From assembly GCA_902596745.1 (NCBI GenBank), contig CACJUZ010000001.1, forward strand, positions 62,001-126,000: DNA of 64,000 bases, in the 5' to 3' direction. A program made the position numbers and the translations under genes. Shown in pieces: positions 52,743-63,725 of this stretch (its first letter is position 1; every line of letters starts with the position of its first letter). The notes below the pieces were generated by a model. The model made no database searches and was not told the DNA's origin. It was given only the letters and a program-made list of their open reading frames with translations. The stretch comes from an uncultured Pelagibacteraceae bacterium. Its GTDB lineage: Bacteria; Pseudomonadota; Alphaproteobacteria; Pelagibacterales; Pelagibacteraceae.

Positions 52743-53345
52743 ATGAAAAAACTTTTAGTTATTATAATTCTTAGCTTATTTTTTTCTTCATCCCAAGCAG
52801 ATGATGTTAGAGACTTTCAGATAGGTAATTTTTCATTAAATGAAAGTCTATTAGACAATTTTACAAAAGAGAAATTAATTAGTAATTGGGAATATCAAAA
52901 AAAAACATATACTTTTAATAGCAACAAGTATTACAAGATAGTTTTTAATGATAAAAAAAAGTACAAACCATACGACCAAATAATTTTATATACTCTTAGA
53001 TCAGATGAGTTATTTAAAATAAAATCAATAACAGGCATTAGATCATCAATGGATATACAAAAATGTCGTAAAGAAAAAATATCTATTTCAGATGATTTTA
53101 CTAAATTATTTCCTAATTCTTCCAAACAAACATATGGTCCAATAAAAAAAACAAGTGACCCAACAGGAAAGAGTTTTGAAGATGGTATTTACTTTGTTTT
53201 AAATAATGGCGACCAAGCAGGTATATCCTGTATAGATTACGGAAAAGAATTTTTAAAAAAATATTCTTATTCCAGCGACCATATGCAAATATTTTTAGAT
53301 ACAAAAAAATATGCTACATGGCTACAAACAGAAGCGTGGAAGTAA
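52743..53345 (+). CDS. Exported small protein, island paralogue family, member A
   Basis: Member of an unrecognised family with at least seven copies in this window. It has 200 residues; the signal peptide is residues 1-19, cut after SSQA before DDVRDFQIG. Family marks are a DxRDFQI start of the mature protein, Cys in DIQKCRKEK, a TGKS segment and a second Cys in ISCIDYGK. Two conserved cysteines suggest one disulfide in the periplasm. The signal-peptide DNA is more diverged here than in copies B, C, E and G. Expressed from an R1 module. Function unknown. Confidence 0.8.
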   Translation: MKKLLVIIILSLFFSSSQADDVRDFQIGNFSLNESLLDNFTKEKLISNWEYQKKTYTFNSNKYYKIVFNDKKKYKPYDQIILYTLRSDELFKIKSITGIRSSMDIQKCRKEKISISDDFTKLFPNSSKQTYGPIKKTSDPTGKSFEDGIYFVLNNGDQAGISCIDYGKEFLKKYSYSSDHMQIFLDTKKYATWLQTEAWK

Positions 53346-53392
53346 ATGTATTTAACTTATCAAACATTAATAAAATCTTATAACTTTATAAT

Positions 53393-53980
53393 ATGAAAAA
53401 ACTTTTAGCTATCATCATTTTAAGTTTATGCTTCATGAGCCCATCCCAGGCAGAAGATATTAAAGACTTTGAAATTGATGGAATGAGTGTGAATGTCAGT
53501 TTACTAGAATATTTTGATAAAAGTTATATTAAAAAAAATAAAATATTTTACGAACAGGCAAAAGGTAATAAGGAGTATGCTAAACTTGAGTTAGTAAAAT
53601 CCTCAATTTATGAAGAAGCTGTGATAACTTTTAAAAATGATCAAACATTCAAAATTGTAGCTGTTGAAGGTTTCATTTTATATGAGAATGATATTAAATC
53701 CTGTTTATCTAGAAGAGAGAAGGTGATTAAAGAATTATCTGAAATGTTTAAAAATAAAATGCAGTGGGATTTTGGTAAGGAAAAACATTTTGCAGATAAT
53801 AATTCATATACTTATACTTATGTTATAGGGTTTGGGAGTAAGGCTGAATTATCCACGCGATACTATGATGCAATTACAATTTCATGTTACGATTGGTCGA
53901 AAAAACTTCCATATGATGACTCATTTAGATTATCAATCAGGACTAAAGAACTTAATCAATGGTTGTATAGATTAAAATAA
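53393..53980 (+). CDS. Exported small protein, island paralogue family, member B
   Basis: A family member of 195 residues with a signal peptide (residues 1-20, ending PSQA) and mature start EDIKDFEIDGMS. The conserved cysteines lie in KSCLSRREK and ISCYDWSKK. The DKSGKS-like segment is not preserved (FADNNS instead). It lacks an R1 or R2 module; the likely -10 is TATAAC at 53379-53384, 8 bases before the ATG. Its stop codon lies inside the second R1 copy, so A and B together are flanked by R1 repeats. Confidence 0.78.
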   Translation: MKKLLAIIILSLCFMSPSQAEDIKDFEIDGMSVNVSLLEYFDKSYIKKNKIFYEQAKGNKEYAKLELVKSSIYEEAVITFKNDQTFKIVAVEGFILYENDIKSCLSRREKVIKELSEMFKNKMQWDFGKEKHFADNNSYTYTYVIGFGSKAELSTRYYDAITISCYDWSKKLPYDDSFRLSIRTKELNQWLYRLK

Positions 53981-54063
53981 TAAAGGATGATGGAGTCATC
54001 GGTCAAGAAGTTTAATCTCAGACACTACATAGACACCACAATGAATTTATTTATAATAGTGAG
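53977..54063 (+). repeat. R1 repeat, copy 2: promoter module
   Basis: Second full R1 copy, offset by exactly 1321 bases from the first and differing at three positions. The -35 TAGACA is at 54030-54035, the -10 TATAAT at 54052-54057, and the ATG at 54064. The left end overlaps the stop codon of member B, so the repeat junction falls inside a gene end. Confidence 0.8.
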
Positions 54064-54645
54064 ATGAAAAAACTTTTAGCGATCATCATTTTAAGCTTAT
54101 GCTTCATAACCCCATCCAAGGCGGATGATATAAGGGACTTTCAGATTAGTGGGATCAGCTTAGGTGATAGTTTGCTAAGTTTTTTTAGCAAAGAATTTAT
54201 TCAACAAACTCTTAAAGATAAAACAAAATCTTATTACTATAAGGACAAAAAATATGCCGATCTTATTTTATCTACTTTAAAAAAAGAGGAACCATATGAT
54301 TTTTTACAAATAACAATTAAACCGAGTGAAAAACTTTTTTATGTTCATAGTATTGCTGGTCAGATAAATTTCCAAGACAATATGCTTAAATGTCAAAAAG
54401 AAAAAGAAATTATTGTTTCAGACATAAAAAATTTATTTCCAAAAAAAAATTTTGAAACTTTTTTTAAACCGCATGCAATAGATAAGTCTGGTAAGTCAAA
54501 AGTAGATCAATCAAATTTATTATTAGCTAATGGAATTATACAAGTTGAATGTTATGATTGGTCAAAAAAATTTCCATATTCAGACAAACTAATAGTTTCA
54601 ATAAAAAACCTTAAGTTTAGAGATTTTCTTATGAACGCATATTGA
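54064..54645 (+). CDS. Exported small protein, island paralogue family, member C
   Basis: A 193-residue family member. The signal peptide ends at PSKA and the mature part starts DDIRDFQISGISLGDSLL. Cysteines lie in LKCQKEKEI and VECYDWSKK, with the AIDKSGKS segment between. Its first 80 coding bases match member E at all but one position, although the DNA upstream of the ATG is a different module (R1 here, R2 in E). The mature domain is then strongly diverged. Function unknown. Confidence 0.8.
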   Translation: MKKLLAIIILSLCFITPSKADDIRDFQISGISLGDSLLSFFSKEFIQQTLKDKTKSYYYKDKKYADLILSTLKKEEPYDFLQITIKPSEKLFYVHSIAGQINFQDNMLKCQKEKEIIVSDIKNLFPKKNFETFFKPHAIDKSGKSKVDQSNLLLANGIIQVECYDWSKKFPYSDKLIVSIKNLKFRDFLMNAY

Positions 54646-54657
54646 ATCAAAATGATG

Positions 54658-54683
54658 GAAGGGGCGTTCTGTTGCCAGGTGCC
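54658..54683 (+). repeat. R3 repeat, copy 1
   Basis: A GC-rich element of about 25 bases, running from AAGGGGCGTTCTG to GCCAGGTGCC, identical at 55303-55327 and 63819-63843. It can fold as GGGC / CTG-TTGC-CAG / GCCC. This copy lies between the 3' ends of members C and D. Confidence 0.8.
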
Positions 54684-54715
54684 CATATCTTATAAAATTA
54701 TTCAACATTCTCATA

Positions 54716-55294
54716 CTAACGATATGCTTCATTGTTTGCGAATTTACGAAATTCATTTGATTCTATTCCCACCATTAGTTTATCACCAATATTTTTTTCT
54801 ATTTTTTTACTCCAATCCATACAATCTATCGTAGCATTGCCACCATCTTTTAATTTAAAAGTTGTATGCCATACCAAACTTTTTCCTGATTTATCGTAAG
54901 CATGTTTTTCTTTTTCATATCTTTTTATTGATGCTGATGGGAAAACTTTAGAAATTTCTTTTTCAATTTCTTTCCTTTTAATTAAACAATCATCAATATT
55001 ATTCACATAAAAAATTCTACCAGCTATATAATGAATAGTATATTTATCATCATTGCTCTTATAGACAAGTTGAACATCATCATAGTTGGAACTTTTCTTT
55101 TCTTTTAAAACTATACCTTTATACTTTCCTTTATAATCAAATTTTTTTATTTTTTTTATTTCTTTTTCTGACATAAAATTTAATAGACTATCTCCAATGC
55201 TCATCCCCTCTATCTGAAAGTCTCTAATATCATCCGCCTGGGATGGTAGCATGAAGCATAAGCTCAGAATTAATATTTGTAGTATTTTTTTCAT
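54716..55294 (-). CDS. Exported small protein, island paralogue family, member D (inverted)
   Basis: A 192-residue family member on the opposite strand from the other copies. The signal peptide ends at PSQA (residue 20); the mature protein starts DDIRDFQIEGMSIGDSLL. Cys103 (DDCLIKRKE) and Cys158 (IDCMDWSKK) are the conserved pair, with DKSGKS at 134-139. Direct R3 copies flank the gene, giving a 644-base unit. Neither R1 nor R2 lies upstream; an R3 copy sits 9 bases before its ATG, so it may be silent or use another promoter. Confidence 0.78.
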   Translation of the reverse strand: MKKILQILILSLCFMLPSQADDIRDFQIEGMSIGDSLLNFMSEKEIKKIKKFDYKGKYKGIVLKEKKSSNYDDVQLVYKSNDDKYTIHYIAGRIFYVNNIDDCLIKRKEIEKEISKVFPSASIKRYEKEKHAYDKSGKSLVWHTTFKLKDGGNATIDCMDWSKKIEKNIGDKLMVGIESNEFRKFANNEAYR

Positions 55295-55302
55295 ATTTTT
55301 TT

Positions 55303-55327
55303 AAGGGGCGTTCTGTTGCCAGGTGCC
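55303..55327 (+). repeat. R3 repeat, copy 2
   Basis: Same 25 bases as 54659-54683. It lies between the divergent starts of members D (9 bases away) and E (118 bases away). Here the stem can extend, since GCCC follows in full. The bases that follow (TTATACGA region) loosely resemble those after copy 3, so the repeated unit may be longer than 25 bases. Confidence 0.8.
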
Positions 55328-55395
55328 CTGAACCTCATTTCGTTAGTCCTTGTTATACGATAATTATTTTACAACCTAAACCCTTTATTTTTTTA

Positions 55396-55445
55396 GCCAG
55401 TGTGACCGTATTGAGTCCGCCAGTGAGTCCAGATATGATGCGTCC
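55396..55445 (+). repeat. R2 repeat, copy 1: alternative promoter module
   Basis: Element shared with 63901-63950. It carries several GTCC units spaced about 11-15 bases apart. A -35 TTGAGT (55411-55416) and a -10 TATGAT (55434-55439) are 17 bases apart, and the ATG follows 6 bases after the -10. It is unrelated in sequence to R1 but has the same promoter-to-ATG geometry. Confidence 0.75.
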
Positions 55446-56012
55446 ATGAAAAAACTTTTAGCGATCATCATTTTAAGCTTATGCTTCATAACCCCATCCC
55501 AGGCGGATGATATAAGGGACTTTCAAATAGATGGTATAAGTATAGGAGATAGTTTGTTAGATTATTTTGATAAAAAAAAGATTAGTTCAAGAAAAAAAAC
55601 TTTTTATAATGATGATAATTTTTATAAAATAAATTTTAACAGTAACAAGAGCGTCTATAAATTAATCAACTTTCATTTAAAAAAAAATGATAATAAATTC
55701 ATAGTATATTCCATGGGAGGAAGAAATATCATAGAATTTAATAAATGTTTAGAAGAAAAAAAACTTGCTATAAAAGAAGTTAAAGATGTTTTAGGAGTAC
55801 AAAGTCAAAATGATTATATAAGTGATTATAGAAAACAATACGGCAAGAGCTTTGCTAACGTAACTGATCTAAAAATTGAGAATGGTTCTGTAAGAATTTA
55901 TTGTGATAATTGGACCGATAAATATGAGAAAGAGAATAAATGGAAAGATAGTTTCAATATTTCTATTTCTTCTCAAGAATTTTTAGATTGGCTTAATACT
56001 AAAGCTTATTAA
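55446..56012 (+). CDS. Exported small protein, island paralogue family, member E
   Basis: A 188-residue family member; signal peptide ends PSQA and the mature part starts DDIRDFQIDGISIGDSLL. Cysteines are in NKCLEEKKL and IYCDNWTDK, with YGKSF standing in for the DKSGKS segment. The 5' coding DNA is almost identical to member C and to the visible start of member G, while the rest diverges. It is driven by an R2 module. It ends 12 bases before the convergent lipoprotein gene. Confidence 0.8.
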   Translation: MKKLLAIIILSLCFITPSQADDIRDFQIDGISIGDSLLDYFDKKKISSRKKTFYNDDNFYKINFNSNKSVYKLINFHLKKNDNKFIVYSMGGRNIIEFNKCLEEKKLAIKEVKDVLGVQSQNDYISDYRKQYGKSFANVTDLKIENGSVRIYCDNWTDKYEKENKWKDSFNISISSQEFLDWLNTKAY

Positions 56013-56024
56013 ATAAATTAAATT

Positions 56025-56993
56025 TTATGGGCTATATGTGTTTGCAGCATCAACTAATTCTTTATAAGCTTCTGTATTTTTTAAAGCAGCAAGTTTAGTA
56101 GTTACGTTTGTGCCTTTATTAATCTCTTCAAGATAATTTTTGTAAGTTAAAGAAATTGGGTATTCTACTAGAATATAAGTCCTATATCCTCCATTAGCTC
56201 TAGGAGCCATTTTAGTTTTCACTACTTTATAACCAGAAATTGAAACATTTTTAATTACAATATTCGCAGCCCTTTCGATGTTTGTCTTTAAAGTTAAATC
56301 TTCTCCAATACCAGCTTCTTTAATCATTTGTTTATTTTTAGAATCTAATCTATTTTGCATTTTCTTGGCTAAAGCTAAAAGAGCTGCATTAACTGCTTTA
56401 TCCTCTGAAAATTGTAAATCGCTTGAAACTGCTGTTCCTCTAGCATACATTATCAATTCAGTGCCAACGGGCATTTCTTGATACCAGTCTGGTATCGCTT
56501 CTCTTATCTTTTTCTCTTCCTCTTCTTTTTGCTTTTTAGATTCTTCAAATTGTTTTTTTAAAGCAACTAAATATTTATCTTCATTTTCAACTTCAAACTC
56601 TAACAATGGTGTTTCACCTAAAATTATTATTTCACTTTTATATTTTTGAATAGCATTTTTACGGTTCTCTTCTTTTTTTTCTTTTTCAAGTTTTGCTTTT
56701 TGATCTTTTTGTTCCTGTTCTTTAGCAGCCTTATCTTTTTCTTTATCTGATTTTAAGTCAGATAATTGTTTTTTTAGCGCTACAATATACTTGTCTTTAT
56801 TTAACTTGCCTTGGTATTTAGCTTGATCTTCAGTTATTGGTGTAGCACCTAATTCTTCTATTTGATTTTGTATTTGAACTATCAGGTCATCCCTAACTTC
56901 TTTTTTCGGGTTGATAGCTCCAGGTTGAGGACACCCAGTAAGCAATGGAGCAATTATTGCTAGAGTAATAAAAATTTTTAATTTTTTAAACAT
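56025..56993 (-). CDS. Lipoprotein with coiled coil and LPP20-like domain
   Basis: A 322-residue lipoprotein: the lipobox is LLTGC (Cys20). Two copies of a helical unit follow (LGATPITEDQAKYQGKLNKD near 33-50 and LGETPLLEFEVENEDKYLVA near 127-146), each ending in a YxVALKKQ motif and separated by a charged coiled coil. From about residue 165 (IPDWYQEMP) the C-terminal domain resembles LPP20/FlgP-type lipoproteins. It is the last gene of the - strand arm and sits directly after the DUF4384-like gene. Likely outer-membrane anchored. Confidence 0.7.
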   Translation of the reverse strand: MFKKLKIFITLAIIAPLLTGCPQPGAINPKKEVRDDLIVQIQNQIEELGATPITEDQAKYQGKLNKDKYIVALKKQLSDLKSDKEKDKAAKEQEQKDQKAKLEKEKKEENRKNAIQKYKSEIIILGETPLLEFEVENEDKYLVALKKQFEESKKQKEEEEKKIREAIPDWYQEMPVGTELIMYARGTAVSSDLQFSEDKAVNAALLALAKKMQNRLDSKNKQMIKEAGIGEDLTLKTNIERAANIVIKNVSISGYKVVKTKMAPRANGGYRTYILVEYPISLTYKNYLEEINKGTNVTTKLAALKNTEAYKELVDAANTYSP

Positions 56994-57808
56994 TATTTAA
57001 TAATAGTATATGTTTTTTGCTCTTTTCTAACAATGTTATTTTTTCCTATTTCTATTAACCTTTTATTTAAATCTTCCATAGAAAAATAACTATTTAACAA
57101 TTTAATATTTTTTTTCGAGGCTATAAAAATTAAATGCTCATCAACTCTTTCCATCTTAACTTCTTTAGGAAACTCAACTATATAATCAATTTTTAAACTT
57201 GAATTCTTCGGTACAGTAGGTAGTAAAAAATTGATATTTTTAAAAAAATTTGTTTTTTCAACTTCATTAGGAAATAATTTAATAATTTGCTCATTATTTC
57301 TATAAGGGAAAAATTGAAAGACATTAAGATACAGGGGTTCGCTGACCACAAATTTAAGCTTTAATTTGTCACCATTTCTAAAATTCATTTCATTTAGTTT
57401 GACTTGAAATTCAAAATTTTTATCTTCCTTAAACGCAGATTGAACCTCTGCTTTAATAGTTATTTTACAATAATATACTTTAGGATCTATTGTTTCATCC
57501 AGTCCTTCTTCTTTATTTAAAATTTTAACTTGAGTTATTTCACCATTTAATGAAAGTATAGAAGTTTGATTATCTTCGCATCTATCTTGTCCATCTGTTC
57601 CTTTACAAACTTGTGTTTCCTCTAAAGAAACTTTTAATCCCAAAGCTTCCTTAACTGCTTTTTCTTTAGCTCTTTTTTCAGCAAGCTTGCAAGCTCTTTT
57701 TTGAGAAATATCTCCAATGTGTTTGAATACTCCCTCAGTTGTAATTATTTCCGCACTACTTTGTGAAAAAAAAAATAAAAAAAAGAAAATTTTAAAAAAT
57801 ATTTTCAT
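56993..57808 (-). CDS. Periplasmic FlgT/LPP20-like plus DUF4384-like protein
   Basis: A 271-residue exported protein with signal peptide (residues 1-19, SSAEIIT). The first half has ACKLAEKRAKEKAVKEALG and a Cys pair in VCKGTDGQDRCED, like FlgT/LPP20 N-terminal domains. The second half (GDKLKLKFVVSEPLYLNVFQFFP) resembles DUF4384, a domain often found next to or fused with caspase-like proteases, which fits the caspase gene in the opposite arm. It shares a base with the lipoprotein gene and with the protease gene. Domain calls are by pattern only. Confidence 0.65.
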   Translation of the reverse strand: MKIFFKIFFFLFFFSQSSAEIITTEGVFKHIGDISQKRACKLAEKRAKEKAVKEALGLKVSLEETQVCKGTDGQDRCEDNQTSILSLNGEITQVKILNKEEGLDETIDPKVYYCKITIKAEVQSAFKEDKNFEFQVKLNEMNFRNGDKLKLKFVVSEPLYLNVFQFFPYRNNEQIIKLFPNEVEKTNFFKNINFLLPTVPKNSSLKIDYIVEFPKEVKMERVDEHLIFIASKKNIKLLNSYFSMEDLNKRLIEIGKNNIVRKEQKTYTIIK

Positions 57809-59349
57809 TAATTTTTAATTTTACTTTTAGGATCTGCCTCTACAGCAATAAAAACTACCATAGGAAGCATTTTTTCATAAATTTTTGATTTATTATACTT
57901 AATATTTCTAACTGGAATAGTTTTTTTGTATTTAAATACCTCTTTTAACATATTGCTTTTTATACCAATGCCCATTGATGTTGGAATATTACCTGTTTCC
58001 TCCATTATCTTTTTTTTATCTAATGTTGCCACACTAATTCCTACCAAGTTACCATCAAGATTAAAAATTGGTCCACCACTGTTGCCTGAATTAATGTCTG
58101 TGGTTGTTAAAAATATTCCCAGATTATCTGGATATACTTTGCTTATAATACCTTGAGTAATTACTGGTAAATCATTTCCAAAATAACCTGTCATAGGGTA
58201 GCCAATACTTATTACGTCCTGACCAACAACAGGATCTTCAAAATTTTTAGGTTTTAAATATTTTTTAAATGGCTTTTTCATTTTTAAAATTGCTAAATCA
58301 TAACTTTTTGATTGAGCAACAACTTTAGCAGGAGAAATTTTTCCAAGGCCATTTCTTACAGCAATTTTATTAGCACCTTGTATCACATGACTATTAGTAA
58401 TAACATATTTTCCATTTTGCACAATAAAACCACTTCCTGTAAAATTGTATGCAAAATCAAATTTTTCAAATTGAGTTTCTTTTTTTCTTCTGTCATATTT
58501 TTCAACTTCTTCTTTTTGAATTTCTTCTTCATCTTTACGTTTAATTTTTTTTACCTTCTTCTTTTTAAAAAATTCTGGATCGATTGATAATATCCATTCT
58601 TTAGTCTCTTTAAGTTTATTTTTATTTTTATTAAATTCATGATATTTATAAACCTTAGATTTTAACTCTAAAGCTTTATCCTTATTTCCTTCGATCCAAT
58701 ATAGATTTCCTAATTCATCCATAACTCTAATACTAGTTGGAAATCTTTTTAAAAATTTATCCAAAATATCTATAGATTTTTTATTATTTTCGAATGTTGA
58801 ATAATATCCAGCTATAGCCAAATTTACCTCTGAATTATTTTTATAACTAATGTATAATTTTTCTAATAGTTCTATAGCTTCACCTTTTTGACCATTTCTT
58901 GTAAGCGCAATAGCTAAAACTATTTTATTTTTTAATGCATCTCCATCAAGATTAATTGACCTTTTTGCATGGTTTATTGCTTTATCAAGATTGCCTTTTC
59001 TTAAGTAAGCTTCTGACAAGCCTAGCTCGGACAAGCTTTCAACTTTATTATCTGATGTCATAAAAGCTTTTTCGTAATATTCAATAGCTTTGAGTGGCTT
59101 ATTAATTTTCAAGTATATATCACCAAAAAGTAAATCGACCTTTTCCTGTTCGCTCTCATTTCCAATTTTCAACTCACCTAATAATTGCAAAGCTTCTTTT
59201 ATTTCGTCTCTGTTTATTTCGGCCCTTATTTCTCTGATCTTTTGATCAAATTCTTTAGCTAAAACTGAAAAACTTAAATTCAAAAAGATGAAAAAATTGA
59301 TTAAAATGAACGTTATAATTTTTTTGATTTTATAATTGATTTGATACAT
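57808..59349 (-). CDS. Exported TPR protein with trypsin-like (S1C) protease domain
   Basis: About 513 residues from the ATG at 59349; the frame is open to 59388, but the later start gives a proper signal peptide ending VLA-KEF. TPR-like helical pairs fill the N-terminal 230 residues (KAIEYYEKAF, KAINHAKRSI). A charged linker leads to a DegP-like protease: GSGFIVQNGKYVITNSHVI with the His, SYDLAILKM with the Asp and DINSGNSGGPIF with the Ser. All three catalytic residues are kept. No PDZ domain is seen. First gene of the - strand arm. Confidence 0.82.
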   Translation of the reverse strand: MYQINYKIKKIITFILINFFIFLNLSFSVLAKEFDQKIREIRAEINRDEIKEALQLLGELKIGNESEQEKVDLLFGDIYLKINKPLKAIEYYEKAFMTSDNKVESLSELGLSEAYLRKGNLDKAINHAKRSINLDGDALKNKIVLAIALTRNGQKGEAIELLEKLYISYKNNSEVNLAIAGYYSTFENNKKSIDILDKFLKRFPTSIRVMDELGNLYWIEGNKDKALELKSKVYKYHEFNKNKNKLKETKEWILSIDPEFFKKKKVKKIKRKDEEEIQKEEVEKYDRRKKETQFEKFDFAYNFTGSGFIVQNGKYVITNSHVIQGANKIAVRNGLGKISPAKVVAQSKSYDLAILKMKKPFKKYLKPKNFEDPVVGQDVISIGYPMTGYFGNDLPVITQGIISKVYPDNLGIFLTTTDINSGNSGGPIFNLDGNLVGISVATLDKKKIMEETGNIPTSMGIGIKSNMLKEVFKYKKTIPVRNIKYNKSKIYEKMLPMVVFIAVEADPKSKIKN

Positions 59350-59462
59350 TTTATAACTATGAGTTTTAAAAATAAATATTTTAACCATATAATTTTTATA
59401 GAAAAGATTCCAATATTTCTTAGCCTTTAAAATATGAGATTTTTGGAAAAAAATTAAATATT

Positions 59463-59996
59463 ATGAAAAAAAAACTTTATTATTTATCTATCTTAATGAT
59501 GCTTTCAGGCTGTTTTGCCTCAAACGTAAAATTGATTGAAAATAATAAAATATACCCCGGTATGAGCAAAATACAAATTAACTCGGTGTTTGCTTATCAA
59601 TCAATTTTGGAAAATCCATTACTACCACTGTCTTATAAAGAATATTTTCAGAAGGAGAACAAGGAAATTTTATCTGATGATAATGATAGAAACGTTTATT
59701 ATGTTTTTAGAAATGTTTATAAACCCGTATCTTGTAACTGGCTGTACTGTAACTTTGGAGATGGTGTTTTAGAATCGACTTTTTATAGTTATAATGCGGC
59801 TGTAAATTTTATAAAAAAAACAGAGAAAAAAAAATATATACAAAAAAAAACTGTTAAAATTGAGCAAAATGGAAAAGTACAAGAGATTTCTTCAAACCAA
59901 GACCTTGAAGGTCTAAAAAAAATATCTAAAGATTATAAAGATGGAAAAATTACTGAACAAGAATTTGAGCAAAAAAAAGCTGAGATATTAAAATGA
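59463..59996 (+). CDS. Lipoprotein with C-terminal SHOCT-like hairpin
   Basis: A 177-residue lipoprotein with lipobox MLSGC (Cys17). The central part (NNKIYPGMSKIQINSVFAYQ) resembles small outer-membrane lipoproteins with a KxGMxxxxV motif, and contains WLYCNFGDG. The C-terminus is a SHOCT-like helical hairpin (LKKISKDYKDGKITEQEFEQ), a motif usually found at protein ends and linked to oligomerisation. It is divergent from the protease gene with a promoter-sized gap and overlaps the caspase-like gene by 4 nt. Confidence 0.7.
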   Translation: MKKKLYYLSILMMLSGCFASNVKLIENNKIYPGMSKIQINSVFAYQSILENPLLPLSYKEYFQKENKEILSDDNDRNVYYVFRNVYKPVSCNWLYCNFGDGVLESTFYSYNAAVNFIKKTEKKKYIQKKTVKIEQNGKVQEISSNQDLEGLKKISKDYKDGKITEQEFEQKKAEILK

Positions 59997-62443
59997 AAAA
60001 AACCCTTTTAATTATAAACTTTATTTTTATTTCCTCATTATTTTCTTTTACAAACTCTTATGCTTACATAACAAAAAAATCAGGTGATATACTTTGTGTT
60101 TCAAAAAGCTTCAATGCGAATTACAGACTCTCTAAATGGAAATGTACTGATGATGAAAGAGAAATTCCTAAAGGAACTGCTGAATATAACGAGGGGTTAG
60201 AATTTTTAAAAATAAGTGATTTAGTTGTTGGTAATAACAGTAAGGCTCCAGCTGTTTTAAAAAATAACAGTTTACAAAAAAAATTAGTTAACAAAAGTAA
60301 TTATAACAGTCAAAAAATAATTGTTTACCCAAAATTTTGCGAGGCAAAAAAAGGATGGAAATATATATCGATGACTGTGAGAGAAAAATGCTACGATAAC
60401 TATAAAGATATAACTTCAATAAAATTAAATACTATGCACTCATCAGATATTTATTGTTTGAAGCCTAACACTGGAGTTTTATATAAACCTTACTCTCGTA
60501 ATTTTGAAACTTGTGAAAATACCATGGGTGTCAAATTGGAAAATGATGGAAAAAATTGGTATTACAATAGTAATTCAAATTTTCCTGTTAGATATGTTAG
60601 TACATCAAAATATATAACAAAAAAGAAATCAAATAATACTAAAGCTATTGAAGAAATTGAAGATTTATATGCTAATGGTTTTTTAAGTAAAAAAGAATGT
60701 GTTAGAGCAAAAGTTAAAATTTTAAAACTACCAAACACATCATCAAGTTTATGTGACAATGTTAAAGTAAAGGTGGTTCATAAAGATGATAAACCTGTGA
60801 CACAAAACAATTACATTACTAAAAAAGAGAAAGAAAAAAGAAAGTCTTATATTAAGAAAAAAAGTAAAGAAGTTGAAAAGAAGCAAAACATTAAAAAAAA
60901 GTTTTATTCATCTTTAAAAGATTTACCTAGTGGTTCCGCTTACTTTTTTGCAATAGATAAAAAAAACAATCAAACCATGATCGGTTATGTTAATCCAGAT
61001 CCAAAATCAAAAATGATTAAATTAAATAACAGATCGTTTAGAAAAGAAAATTTAGGTTATCTTTATAAAAAAGGTGGAATGATTTGTGACGTGTTGTCTG
61101 TTCTGGAAAATTCAAGATCAGGTAGAATTTATTCAGGCACAATCGACGTTAATTGCCCTAATGGATTTTATATTGGAAACTGGGTGCAAAATGGTAATAG
61201 GGGTAGCGGTAATGCGATCGATGAAAGGGGCAATGAAATAAACTACTGGTTTTTTATTAATAGAAACGATGCTATTGCGAAACTTAGAGAAGAACAGCAA
61301 GAAACAAGAATTGTAAAAAAACCTAAACAAATGCAAAAACAAAATATTTTTGAGCCAAAAAAATCTGTAATTGATAAAGAAGCTCCAAAAATCAAAACAA
61401 AATTAAAAATTATCTCAAAAACTCCTAATTTTGTAATTGAAGGAGTAATTGAAGATAACAAAAAACATAAAAAAGGACCTTTCTTAGAAATTGCAGATGA
61501 AAATGTTGAATTTAATAAGGCAACAGGAAAATTTTCAAAAAAACTTTATAGTCCATTTTCCACTGAGATTACCTTAGCTGCAACCGATATTTTTGGAAAT
61601 AGAGAAGAAATCGTCGTGCAAGTAGTGATAAAAGAAACTAAAACTCAATTAGCTGAAAAGTTAGAACCATTAAATCCTTCAAAAGTTAGAAGTAATGTTA
61701 ATCCAAATACCGTTGCTGTAGTGATTGGTATAGAAAAATACGAGAAAGTTGTTAGCTCACCTTATTCTAATTTAGATGCTAAATATTTTTCTCAATATGC
61801 AAAGAAAATAGCTAAATCAAATAATATTATTACATTAGTGGATGAGAAAGCTACTCGTAATGAGAGTATTGCTGCATTGGTTAAACACTTAAAATCAAAA
61901 GTTAAGAAGGGTGAAACAGATGTTTACATATTTTTCTCTGGCCATGGTTTAGCGGCAAATGAAAAAGACCTTTATCTTATGGCTAAAGACAGTGACTCAG
62001 ACCTGTTAGAGTATACTGCTTTAAATAGAAAAGAAATTATTAAACTAGTAGCTGGTTTTAAACCAAAATCAGTAACAATGTTTTTAGACACTTGTTACAG
62101 TGGAGTTTCAAGAAAAGGCGAACAATTAGTTGCTTCTGCAAGACCAATAAGAGTTAAAGTTACTGAAGATTTAGATATTCCAAATAATTTTAATATCTTC
62201 TCAGCCTCACAAGCATCTCAAATTTCCTCAAGCATGGACAAAGCCAAGCAAGGTATTTTCAGCTATTACTTGATGAAAGGTTTAGAGGGAAATGCTGACA
62301 ATAATAGAGACCGATATATTACAAATCAAGAAATGTTTGCTTATCTAAAGGAAAATGTAAGCCAAAAGGCATTAGAAATTTATAGTAGAGATCAATTTCC
62401 TGGTTTTACCGGGTCGCCAGAAAAAATCTTATGGAAATATTAA
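59993..62443 (+). CDS. Exported caspase-like (C14) protease with SHOCT-like and extracytoplasmic domains
   Basis: An 816-residue protein with signal peptide (residues 1-24, TNSYA-YIT). Residues 25-210 are Cys-containing repeats of unknown type. A SHOCT-like hairpin (IEEIEDLYANGFLSKKECVR) lies near residue 220 and a basic linker follows. A beta-rich middle domain covers 300-430. The C-terminal caspase fold starts at VAVVIGIEKYE (about 572), with the catalytic His651 in FSGHG and Cys701 in DTCYSG. Both catalytic residues are present, so it is likely active. Export means it is an envelope protease and not an intracellular death effector. Confidence 0.82.
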   Translation: MKKTLLIINFIFISSLFSFTNSYAYITKKSGDILCVSKSFNANYRLSKWKCTDDEREIPKGTAEYNEGLEFLKISDLVVGNNSKAPAVLKNNSLQKKLVNKSNYNSQKIIVYPKFCEAKKGWKYISMTVREKCYDNYKDITSIKLNTMHSSDIYCLKPNTGVLYKPYSRNFETCENTMGVKLENDGKNWYYNSNSNFPVRYVSTSKYITKKKSNNTKAIEEIEDLYANGFLSKKECVRAKVKILKLPNTSSSLCDNVKVKVVHKDDKPVTQNNYITKKEKEKRKSYIKKKSKEVEKKQNIKKKFYSSLKDLPSGSAYFFAIDKKNNQTMIGYVNPDPKSKMIKLNNRSFRKENLGYLYKKGGMICDVLSVLENSRSGRIYSGTIDVNCPNGFYIGNWVQNGNRGSGNAIDERGNEINYWFFINRNDAIAKLREEQQETRIVKKPKQMQKQNIFEPKKSVIDKEAPKIKTKLKIISKTPNFVIEGVIEDNKKHKKGPFLEIADENVEFNKATGKFSKKLYSPFSTEITLAATDIFGNREEIVVQVVIKETKTQLAEKLEPLNPSKVRSNVNPNTVAVVIGIEKYEKVVSSPYSNLDAKYFSQYAKKIAKSNNIITLVDEKATRNESIAALVKHLKSKVKKGETDVYIFFSGHGLAANEKDLYLMAKDSDSDLLEYTALNRKEIIKLVAGFKPKSVTMFLDTCYSGVSRKGEQLVASARPIRVKVTEDLDIPNNFNIFSASQASQISSSMDKAKQGIFSYYLMKGLEGNADNNRDRYITNQEMFAYLKENVSQKALEIYSRDQFPGFTGSPEKILWKY

Positions 62444-63051
62444 TCTTAAATTTAAAAAGAAAAATAACCAAGTCTTTTAGAGTAATATTAATAACATCAT
62501 TTTTTTTTCATTTGAATCATGTAAATGCTGGTTATGGTAGTGGCGAACTTAATATTTCAGGTCAAGCGTTAGATTGGTTTATTCAATATATTCAAAATCC
62601 CGGAGGAGTAAAAAACCCCAATAAATCCCCGATGAAATTTTCAGTAAGTTTAGATGGAAGAAATGGATGGTATTATTATTGTCAGGCTATGAACGCATCC
62701 AGATGTCAATCTGTTAGTGATAAAGAATTAAATAAACAATGTGAAAGGAAAAACAAAGTGTCAAAATGTGAAGTTTTTGCTGTTGGAAGAAGTATTAAAT
62801 GGAGAAACGGAATTGTTGAAAATGATAAAATTAAATTACGAAAATCTGACTCTAGAGAAGAACTAATTGCTAAATTAAAACAATTAGGATTTATTAAAAA
62901 TGAAAACACAAAAATTAAATCAATAAAAACGAGTAAGTCTAAAGAAAAAGATCTTTCTACACAATTAGTGGAAATCACAGAACTTTATAAATCAGGTTCA
63001 ATAACAAAAGATGAATATACAAAAGCAAAAAATAAACTTTTAGATAAATAA
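62431..63051 (+). CDS. Exported protein with SHOCT-like C-terminus, unknown
   Basis: A 206-residue protein that overlaps the caspase-like gene by 13 nt. A hydrophobic segment (about residues 18-32, ending HVNA) looks like a signal peptide after an unusually long basic start; a later start is possible. The mature part has a conserved-looking aromatic/Cys region (GWYYYCQAMNASRCQSV, KCEVFAVGR). The C-terminus repeats the SHOCT-like hairpin (ITELYKSGSITKDEYTKAKN). No known family recognised. It ends the + strand arm. Confidence 0.65.
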   Translation: MEILILNLKRKITKSFRVILITSFFFHLNHVNAGYGSGELNISGQALDWFIQYIQNPGGVKNPNKSPMKFSVSLDGRNGWYYYCQAMNASRCQSVSDKELNKQCERKNKVSKCEVFAVGRSIKWRNGIVENDKIKLRKSDSREELIAKLKQLGFIKNENTKIKSIKTSKSKEKDLSTQLVEITELYKSGSITKDEYTKAKNKLLDK

Positions 63052-63134: not shown

Positions 63135-63725
63135 ATGAAAAAATTTTTAACAATTATCATCCTTAACTTATGTTTTATATCATCAGTTCAAGCAGATGAT
63201 ATTAGAGACTTTCAGATTGAAGGGATGAGTATTGGAGATAGTCTATTAGATTTTATGTCAGAAAAAGAAATAAAAGACTATAGGAGAAACTATTTAAAAG
63301 GAAAAAGAGAATATTATGTTGTAGCTAGGATAGATAATTTAGAAACTTATGAAGTTGTAGATTTGTATTTAAAAACTGGAGATCAAAAATATTTAATCAG
63401 AACCATTGGTGGATTTATTTTTCATGATAAAAATATGTGTTTCCCTAAAAAAAAACAAATTGTGTTTGAATTAGAAAAAATGTTTCCCAATATTAAAAAA
63501 GAAGAAGGTGAAAGGGCTCATGATTTTGATAAGTCAAAAAAATCTAGACAACATCAAACAACTTTTTTCTTAAAAAAAACAAAGAAAAAAAACGACCCAC
63601 ATATCAGGGTTGAGTGCACTGTATGGTCAGAAAAAATTAAAAAAAAAAATAATTTTGATGATAGTTTAAATGTTGTTGCCATGACAACAGAAATTCTTAA
63701 TTGGATTTATAACGGTTACAAATAA
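63135..63725 (+). CDS. Exported small protein, island paralogue family, member F
   Basis: A 196-residue family member beyond the protease cluster. The signal peptide ends SVQA; the mature start DDIRDFQIEGMSIGDSLLDF is close to member D at protein level. Cysteines lie in NMCFPKKKQ and VECTVWSEK, and HDFDKSKKS matches the DKSGKS segment. It shows that the family brackets the six-gene protease cluster on both sides. Function unknown. Confidence 0.8.
   Translation: MKKFLTIIILNLCFISSVQADDIRDFQIEGMSIGDSLLDFMSEKEIKDYRRNYLKGKREYYVVARIDNLETYEVVDLYLKTGDQKYLIRTIGGFIFHDKNMCFPKKKQIVFELEKMFPNIKKEEGERAHDFDKSKKSRQHQTTFFLKKTKKKNDPHIRVECTVWSEKIKKKNNFDDSLNVVAMTTEILNWIYNGYK

Follow-up and report, generated by a model that had tools for sequence, protein, structure and literature searches.

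The core trio and the orthocaspase recur together

The window analysed here is a stretch of 64,000 nucleotides (positions 62,001 to 126,000 of contig CACJUZ010000001.1) and is part of the 1.02-Mb genome of an uncultured Pelagibacteraceae bacterium, probably of SAR11 type. It carries a cassette in which three minus-strand genes, encoding a trypsin-like protease of the S1C type with TPRs, a DUF4384-type protein and an LPP20-domain lipoprotein (hereafter the trio), lie beside a plus-strand arm built around an orthocaspase gene. The same core genes recur together elsewhere, which indicates that the array is beyond chance. It is very probable that the trio and the caspase form a functional unit, and chances are about even that the cassette is an extracytoplasmic two-protease module.

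The initial annotation had tied the two arms to each other, and the distribution of the genes bears this out. Among 397 genomes of the family, the window caspase matched 12. Four of these (G000, G009, G169 and G231) contain the close type, with the LPP20, DUF4384, TPR-trypsin and caspase genes in one block. The same four genomes, and no others of the 397, contain a full-length LPP20 relative; 15 further ones gave only weak LPP20 domain matches of 24-45 bits. The eight other caspase-matching genomes have a second architecture, in which a trypsin-like gene lies directly downstream of the caspase (8/8 loci) and its product aligns with the window S1C protein over the protease part only.

When named genomes were scanned with a caspase profile, 110 relatives came up, and the best 80 of these, making up 71 loci, were retained. 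They come from Pelagibacteraceae, SAR116, Comamonadaceae, Oxalobacteraceae, Paramagnetospirillum caucaseum and a few others, and were grouped by record title (the oddly labelled L099 was counted with SAR11, L119 with the betaproteobacteria, L146 and L147 with SAR116; L089, L094 and L104 apparently repeat G009, G169 and G231). Within the stretches read, which were often ended by contig ends, the full trio was present beside the caspase in 24 of the 71 loci, with one to three caspase open reading frames (ORFs) each, pieces included. By group, these were 17/32 SAR11 loci, 2/17 beta-type, 5/18 SAR116-type and 0/4 others. At the genome level, DUF4384 was detected in 41 of 50 caspase genomes (21/24 SAR11, 8/9 beta, 10/14 SAR116-type, 2/3 others) versus 3 of 385 in an even sample of the class. 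One of the three is the window's own genome; G480 has the operon and a caspase, and G524 has no caspase match.

These counts bear on a simpler explanation, in which both enzymes are ordinary accessory degradative or quality-control proteases that happen to be sited together in variable islands and share no mechanism. Both do come from large families, and the two cassette types share some chromosomal settings. However, the order S1C-DUF4384-LPP20 is kept in 16/17 SAR11 and 5/5 SAR116-type trio loci, L108 being the exception, and the same genes stand with a caspase in distant proteobacteria. We therefore consider such chance co-siting very unlikely.

Several observations weigh against a strict association of trio and caspase. 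In G524, a 99% complete genome, the trio looks broken, its S1C and LPP20 genes being split, and there is no caspase match; 9 of the 50 caspase genomes are without DUF4384. No S1C gene was seen in the stretches read at 5 of 29 DUF4384 loci (L101, L109, L135, L136, L141). The trio is rare at the beta-type caspase loci, though nearly all of those genomes have DUF4384 somewhere. Weaker caspase relatives (20-139 bits) were seen in 14 of the 78 class genomes searched that lack DUF4384, none of them near the 289 bits of G480. The 50 genomes were drawn from 53 distinguishable ones and had been selected for likeness to the window caspase, and genome and locus counts alike ignore kinship. Finally, the divergent gene orientation, after which the initial annotation named the cluster, holds for the window locus and some relatives and is not supported as a defining feature, being not conserved: the arms converge in G231, and the betaproteobacterial loci L113, L121, L189 and L191 have the genes on a single strand.

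Some records of the scan call for comment. L099, titled Crocinitomicaceae, matches the Pelagibacteraceae contig L093 in the sizes and order of its core genes and is probably a wrongly binned record. L118 and L119, titled Oxalobacteraceae and Sphingomonadales, have caspase ORFs of the same size, as do L116 and L117; they were dropped as duplicates from the 108-copy set described below, and their binning looks unreliable. In L108 (9095-10804 and 12623-13792), the N-terminus of a caspase resembles the one found on the LPP20 protein of G231, as if two N-termini had been exchanged by an inversion; an assembly error is possible.

Layout of the window locus

All six ORFs of the two arms are intact in the ORF list, at the positions first assigned to them. 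On the minus strand, the LPP20-domain lipoprotein (56025-56993, 322 residues) shows a lipobox-like LLTGC and a repeated N-terminal part, the DUF4384-type protein (56993-57808, 271 residues) has conserved cysteines, and the TPR and trypsin-like protease (57808-59388, 526 residues) has His334, Asp364 and Ser437. The plus strand carries, in this order, a lipoprotein with a C-terminal SHOCT-like tag and a lipobox-like LSGC (59463-59996, 177 residues), which overlaps the caspase start; the orthocaspase (59993-62443, 816 residues), with its C14 domain at residues 574-807, the pair His651/Cys701, Asp699 and an EF-hand-like loop at 769-780; and a secreted protein with a C-terminal SHOCT-like tag (62431-63051, 206 residues). 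All six products appear to be exported or lipid-anchored, as had been predicted. Signal peptides and lipoboxes were identified by visual inspection throughout, which weakens the assignment of the cassette to the envelope. The unit was originally drawn around all six genes; it now has to be narrowed, since the two SHOCT genes are accessory.

The overlaps between adjacent genes are 1, 1, 4 and 13 bases long, and 74 bases separate the starts of the divergent sets, so that two operons are likely. The 74-bp gap between the starts (59389-59462) is presumably the promoter region. By eye, glycosyltransferase-like genes lie to the left of the locus and rlmB- and tuf-like genes to the right.

The domain calls were unevenly backed by Pfam. 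The trypsin-like and TPR assignment (Trypsin_2, E = 1.2e-27, plus TPRs) and the C14 assignment (Peptidase_C14, E = 1.9e-13, above the cut-off) were strongly supported. The other calls came out below the family thresholds: LPP20 (E = 4.1e-5, 24.4 bits for a cut-off of 25.9), DUF4384 (E = 5.4e-6, 26.8 bits for a cut-off of 27) and SHOCT in the products of 59463-59996 (E = 1.4e-4) and 62431-63051 (E = 3e-4). The LPP20 and DUF4384 proteins of the window thus resemble these families by profile only.

Active sites of the two proteases

The assignment of His651 and Cys701 as the catalytic pair was confirmed by aligning distinct caspase ORFs, in which the His and the Cys are kept in 108/108. The residue two positions before the catalytic Cys, Asp699 in the window protein, is Asp in 106 copies and Glu in 2. 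The 12-residue EF-hand-like loop is also well kept across the 108 caspases, with Asp at position 1 in 104, Asn or Asp at position 3 in 102, Asp at position 5 in 103, the residue at position 8 kept in 102 and Glu at position 12 in 99. The seed patterns of the named-genome scan did not include the catalytic and loop residues scored here. On the trypsin-like side, the S1C triad His, Asp, Ser is kept in 33/33 proteins. When 13 caspases and 12 trypsin-like proteins from both architectures were aligned, all retained their catalytic residues. The loss of catalytic residues in homologues, which would have spoken against two active proteases, was thus looked for and was found in none of the 108 caspases and 33 trypsin-like proteins.

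With its His-Cys dyad and a Peptidase_C14 match above the cut-off, the window caspase is an orthocaspase (C14 peptidase) with a p20 domain. The acidic residue before the catalytic Cys presumably lines the orthocaspase specificity pocket. PMC6426788 describes cleavage by orthocaspases after positively charged residues. The active caspase would probably cut after Arg or Lys, in a calcium-dependent manner.

In the DUF4384 alignment (36 rows), Cys68, Cys77 and Cys114 are invariant. Sequence searches with DUF4384 or LPP20 gave no convincing relative of solved structure. A [YW]I[TKQ]K[KR]-like motif (Phe first also allowed) was considered as a universal autoprocessing site and rejected; found in 10/51 SAR11 caspases, 0/57 others and 5/347 background ORFs, it is a subtype feature only.

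Variable ectodomains and the SHOCT-like tag

The region preceding the caspase domain varies widely. A 20-row caspase profile matched MORN, metacaspase and MALT1 proteins by sequence. Across two sets of 41 and 49 caspases, Pfam recognized MORN repeats in 2/41 and 20/49 and the Ig-like domain Glucodextran_B in 11/41 and 13/49. SBP_bac_8, OpuAC, SurA_N, PDZ, WG and Sel1 were found in one or two cases each, together with some TPRs, and many ectodomains had no Pfam match at all. Wherever positions were shown, the solute-binding protein (SBP), OpuAC, SurA and MORN matches preceded the caspase domain. The ectodomain of the window caspase contains SHOCT-like and [YW]ITKK segments and stretches that match the MORN and Ig-like parts of relatives, these without a Pfam match of their own.

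Among 15 chosen SAR11 caspases (105 pairs), the median identity, taken as identity times coverage, was 0.60 for the caspase domain and 0.12 for the ectodomain. Their common signal peptide (median identity 0.68) is so by construction, since the proteins had been picked by their first residues. Trimming the ends of 79 ectodomains and comparing them gave 23 similarity groups, the largest of 44. Judged from these comparisons, the ectodomains are exchangeable: they differ while the caspase domain stays alike.

Fusions of a solute-binding protein or a SurA part to a caspase were noted at L082:7055-10804, L083:8450-10804, L086:8645-10804 and L097:8270-10807. In L083, the fused SBP part shares 67% identity with a free SBP that its own genome also encodes, by eye within an ABC operon; a free relative in the genome of L082 is 43% identical to the L083 query. 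For the OpuAC part of L086, the free match (66% identity) comes from another genome, and no free OpuAC copy was found in L086's own. The window caspase has no solute-binding fusion.

This closeness to free SBPs (66-67%), the retention of most aromatic residues by the fused solute-binding domains and the SurA- and PDZ-type domains of some caspases are what one would expect of ligand-gated envelope signalling, a form of regulated proteolysis with no immune role. SBP-, SurA- and MORN-type ectodomains would then read nutrients or the state of the envelope, and proteolysis would remodel it. On the other hand, a patchy distribution, several chromosomal settings and, often, two or more diversified caspases at one locus are not what a housekeeping signalling system would usually show, and the many ectodomains without Pfam match argue in the same direction. 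Overall, we consider a purely signalling role rather unlikely.

Iterative profiles seeded with the two SHOCT genes of the window and a 428-residue gene product of G009 recruited each other, several caspases and small secreted neighbours. By eye, the part common to these tagged proteins is a SHOCT-like segment, which is below the Pfam cut-off in the two window genes and in the L082 caspase. Relatives of the SHOCT lipoprotein lie directly upstream of the caspase in L096, L098, L102 and L111, as in the window; relatives of the second SHOCT protein were found in L050, L080, L081, L096, L098, L110, L111 and L195. The shared segment may serve as a docking tag.

An array of secreted paralogues around the cassette

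The window cassette sits inside an array of small secreted paralogues, which the initial annotation did not mention. The array was found by a profile of a 20-member alignment and labelled DIRDF from a motif just after the signal peptide. On the LPP20 side, the array spans 52743-56012, with members at 52743-53345 (200 residues), 53393-53980 (195), 54064-54645 (193) and 55446-56012 (188), all on the plus strand and the last adjoining the LPP20 gene, and at 54716-55294 (192) on the minus strand. On the other side, it resumes from 63135, with a plus-strand member (63135-63725, 196 residues) next after the second SHOCT gene, and four more follow in the next stretch (L035), the first starting at the window's end. 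The genome has 11 matches, one of them on another contig. Among the 20 aligned members, one Cys is invariant and another nearly so; signal peptides are similar and the bodies divergent. Two of the proteins were tested in Pfam and gave no match above the cut-off.

Up to eight matches per genome were scored in the family. DIRDF genes were present in 44/397 genomes, including all 12 matched by the window caspase, and in the stretch read at 11 of the 12 family caspase loci (G231 is the exception). Conversely, a caspase of either type was found in 19/44 DIRDF genomes versus 0/36 chosen negatives, and in 17/19 genomes with at least five matches versus 2/25 with one to three. One of the 17, G308, has an apparently broken caspase. 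Its second-type gene (G308:C5:18661-20109, L215) contains six internal stop codons.

This co-occurrence would fit a machine for maturation or surface diversification, with secreted paralogues such as the DIRDF proteins as substrates of the proteases. In the named scan, however, DIRDF genes are absent from 39/39 non-SAR11 loci and 23/32 SAR11 loci, being present in 9/32. In addition, G066 and G170 have many DIRDF matches and no caspase match. Therefore, DIRDF processing cannot be the general function, and a maturation machine appears distinctly unlikely. The same absences led us to reject DIRDF as a core part of the cassette.

A proposed mechanism

The recurrent linkage, the intact active sites, the acidic residue before the Cys, the EF-hand-like loop and the modular ectodomains can all be read from the sequences. 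Building on them, we propose that the trio, outside SAR11 often joined by a GNA1162-like/TPR lipoprotein, most likely assembles into a platform beneath the outer membrane. This platform would serve one or more exported orthocaspases with exchangeable ectodomains. A ligand, a damaged envelope or an attacker would engage an ectodomain or a SHOCT-tagged partner, and the caspases would gather on the platform. The trypsin-like and caspase activities might then activate each other through limited cleavage, after which the active caspase would cleave envelope proteins. The DIRDF proteins would be candidate substrates or effectors in part of SAR11. Platform, triggering, mutual activation and output are all inferred, and it counts against the model that platform and assembly derive from family names. 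Whether such a cascade leads from a sensor to periplasmic proteases is, in our estimate, close to evenly poised. That it serves defence against phages or predators in particular seems doubtful. Still more so is an extracytoplasmic system resembling innate immunity, which we regard as unlikely. There, some caspases would carry relatives of the cell's own envelope proteins (SBPs, SurA, PDZ) as integrated baits, attack on these would set off the trypsin and caspase cascade outside the cytoplasm, and DIRDF arrays would supply diversified effectors or baits in part of SAR11.

SAR11 is one of the most abundant bacterial groups of the ocean. If the proposed cascade is true, proteolytic cascades would extend to the periplasm, in this very group. 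A recurring core with caspases bearing different sensor-like domains suggests an undescribed monitoring or defence device outside the cytoplasm, and the swapped ectodomains lead to direct hypotheses on what is sensed. The operon of the named strain Paramagnetospirillum caucaseum SO-1 is a possible entry to bench work.

Comparison with known systems

The initial annotation had recognized no known system, and we reached the same result. PADLOC and NCBIfam scans of ten proteins each gave no system-level match, and the cassette was not found described in the literature searched. PADLOC returned only protease- or caspase-domain matches for its ten proteins, and no defence system with partner genes.

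Among the literature searched, fused trypsin-p20-DUF4384 proteins and protease-gated immunity come nearest to the cassette. The association of domains thus has a precedent: PMC6426788 describes one alphaproteobacterial protein in which trypsin, p20 and DUF4384 are fused, with a Gln-Cys dyad. The window cassette resembles such trypsin-p20-DUF4384 pseudo-orthocaspases in bringing the three domains together. It differs from the fusions described there in that its proteins are separate and apparently exported, its His-Cys dyad is intact, and lipoproteins and exchangeable ectodomains are added; it does not belong with them. An exported operon with exchangeable ectodomains was not found described in the literature searched.

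Bacterial immunity gated by proteases, with trypsin- or caspase-activated nucleases, is reported in PMC12799240. Like the Canu caspase-nuclease defence presented there, the window has a multi-gene locus that includes a protease of the caspase family and features TPR and Ig-like folds. The output of Canu is a gated nuclease (PMC12799240), whereas the window proteins bear export signals by eye. Neither Pfam nor PADLOC gave a nuclease match for the genes directly beside the window caspase; inspection of the other loci was by eye only. Similarly, in the Hachiman and AVAST trypsin-activated nuclease pairs (PMC12799240), gene order links a trypsin-like protease to a second enzyme, which is an MBL-type nuclease there and a caspase in the window.

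On the trypsin-like side, HtrA/Deg proteins are close known proteases, and the window serine-protease domain aligns with DegP and DegS. Unlike them, the window protein has N-terminal TPRs and scores far below the NCBIfam cut-offs. It has the triad and lacks a PDZ match in Pfam, which places it outside the triad-plus-PDZ type. The C14 domain matches solved chains of metacaspases and of the MALT1 paracaspase by sequence, and some relatives have an Ig-like domain beside the caspase. The window caspase differs from these proteins in its export, judged by eye, its EF-hand-like loop, its exchangeable ectodomains and its operon with lipoproteins.

Chromosomal settings and variants of the cassette

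Cassettes of both types were seen at the same places. By eye, a first-type cassette occupies the interval from ETF-QO to etfA/etfB in G009, and second-type cassettes do so in G093 and G266; the G169 and G162 cassettes border ETF-QO at one end. Both types also lie within several kilobases of purC/purB-like genes (G232, G140; L109, L194). A few variable chromosomal spots thus appear to have been used repeatedly. Carriage by viruses or plasmids was considered and is not supported, within the collections and sensitivities of the searches run. Neither the full caspase nor the DIRDF profile found a relative in viral_contigs, where the caspase profile gave two weak matches (26% and 31% identity). The caspase domain and one DIRDF protein searched against phages, and two DUF4384 proteins against plasmids, gave nothing.

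Non-SAR11 loci often have an additional lipoprotein gene, whose product combines a GNA1162-like part with TPRs. A local profile detected this gene at 12 of the 20 non-SAR11 loci that contain core genes and at none of the SAR11 loci searched. Of four such lipoproteins submitted to Pfam, two were above the GNA1162-like cut-off, one was below it and one showed TPRs only. A protein of about 155 residues that looks exported was likewise detected, in 6 loci.

Two further features of the second architecture were noted by eye. The C-termini of its trypsin-like proteins (e.g. L053:11334-12611) carry tandem Asp/Asn-rich repeats of the D-x-N-x-D-G type, with a calcium-binding look. Near the second-type cassette of G162, L054:1-4819 contains genes resembling type I restriction subunits.

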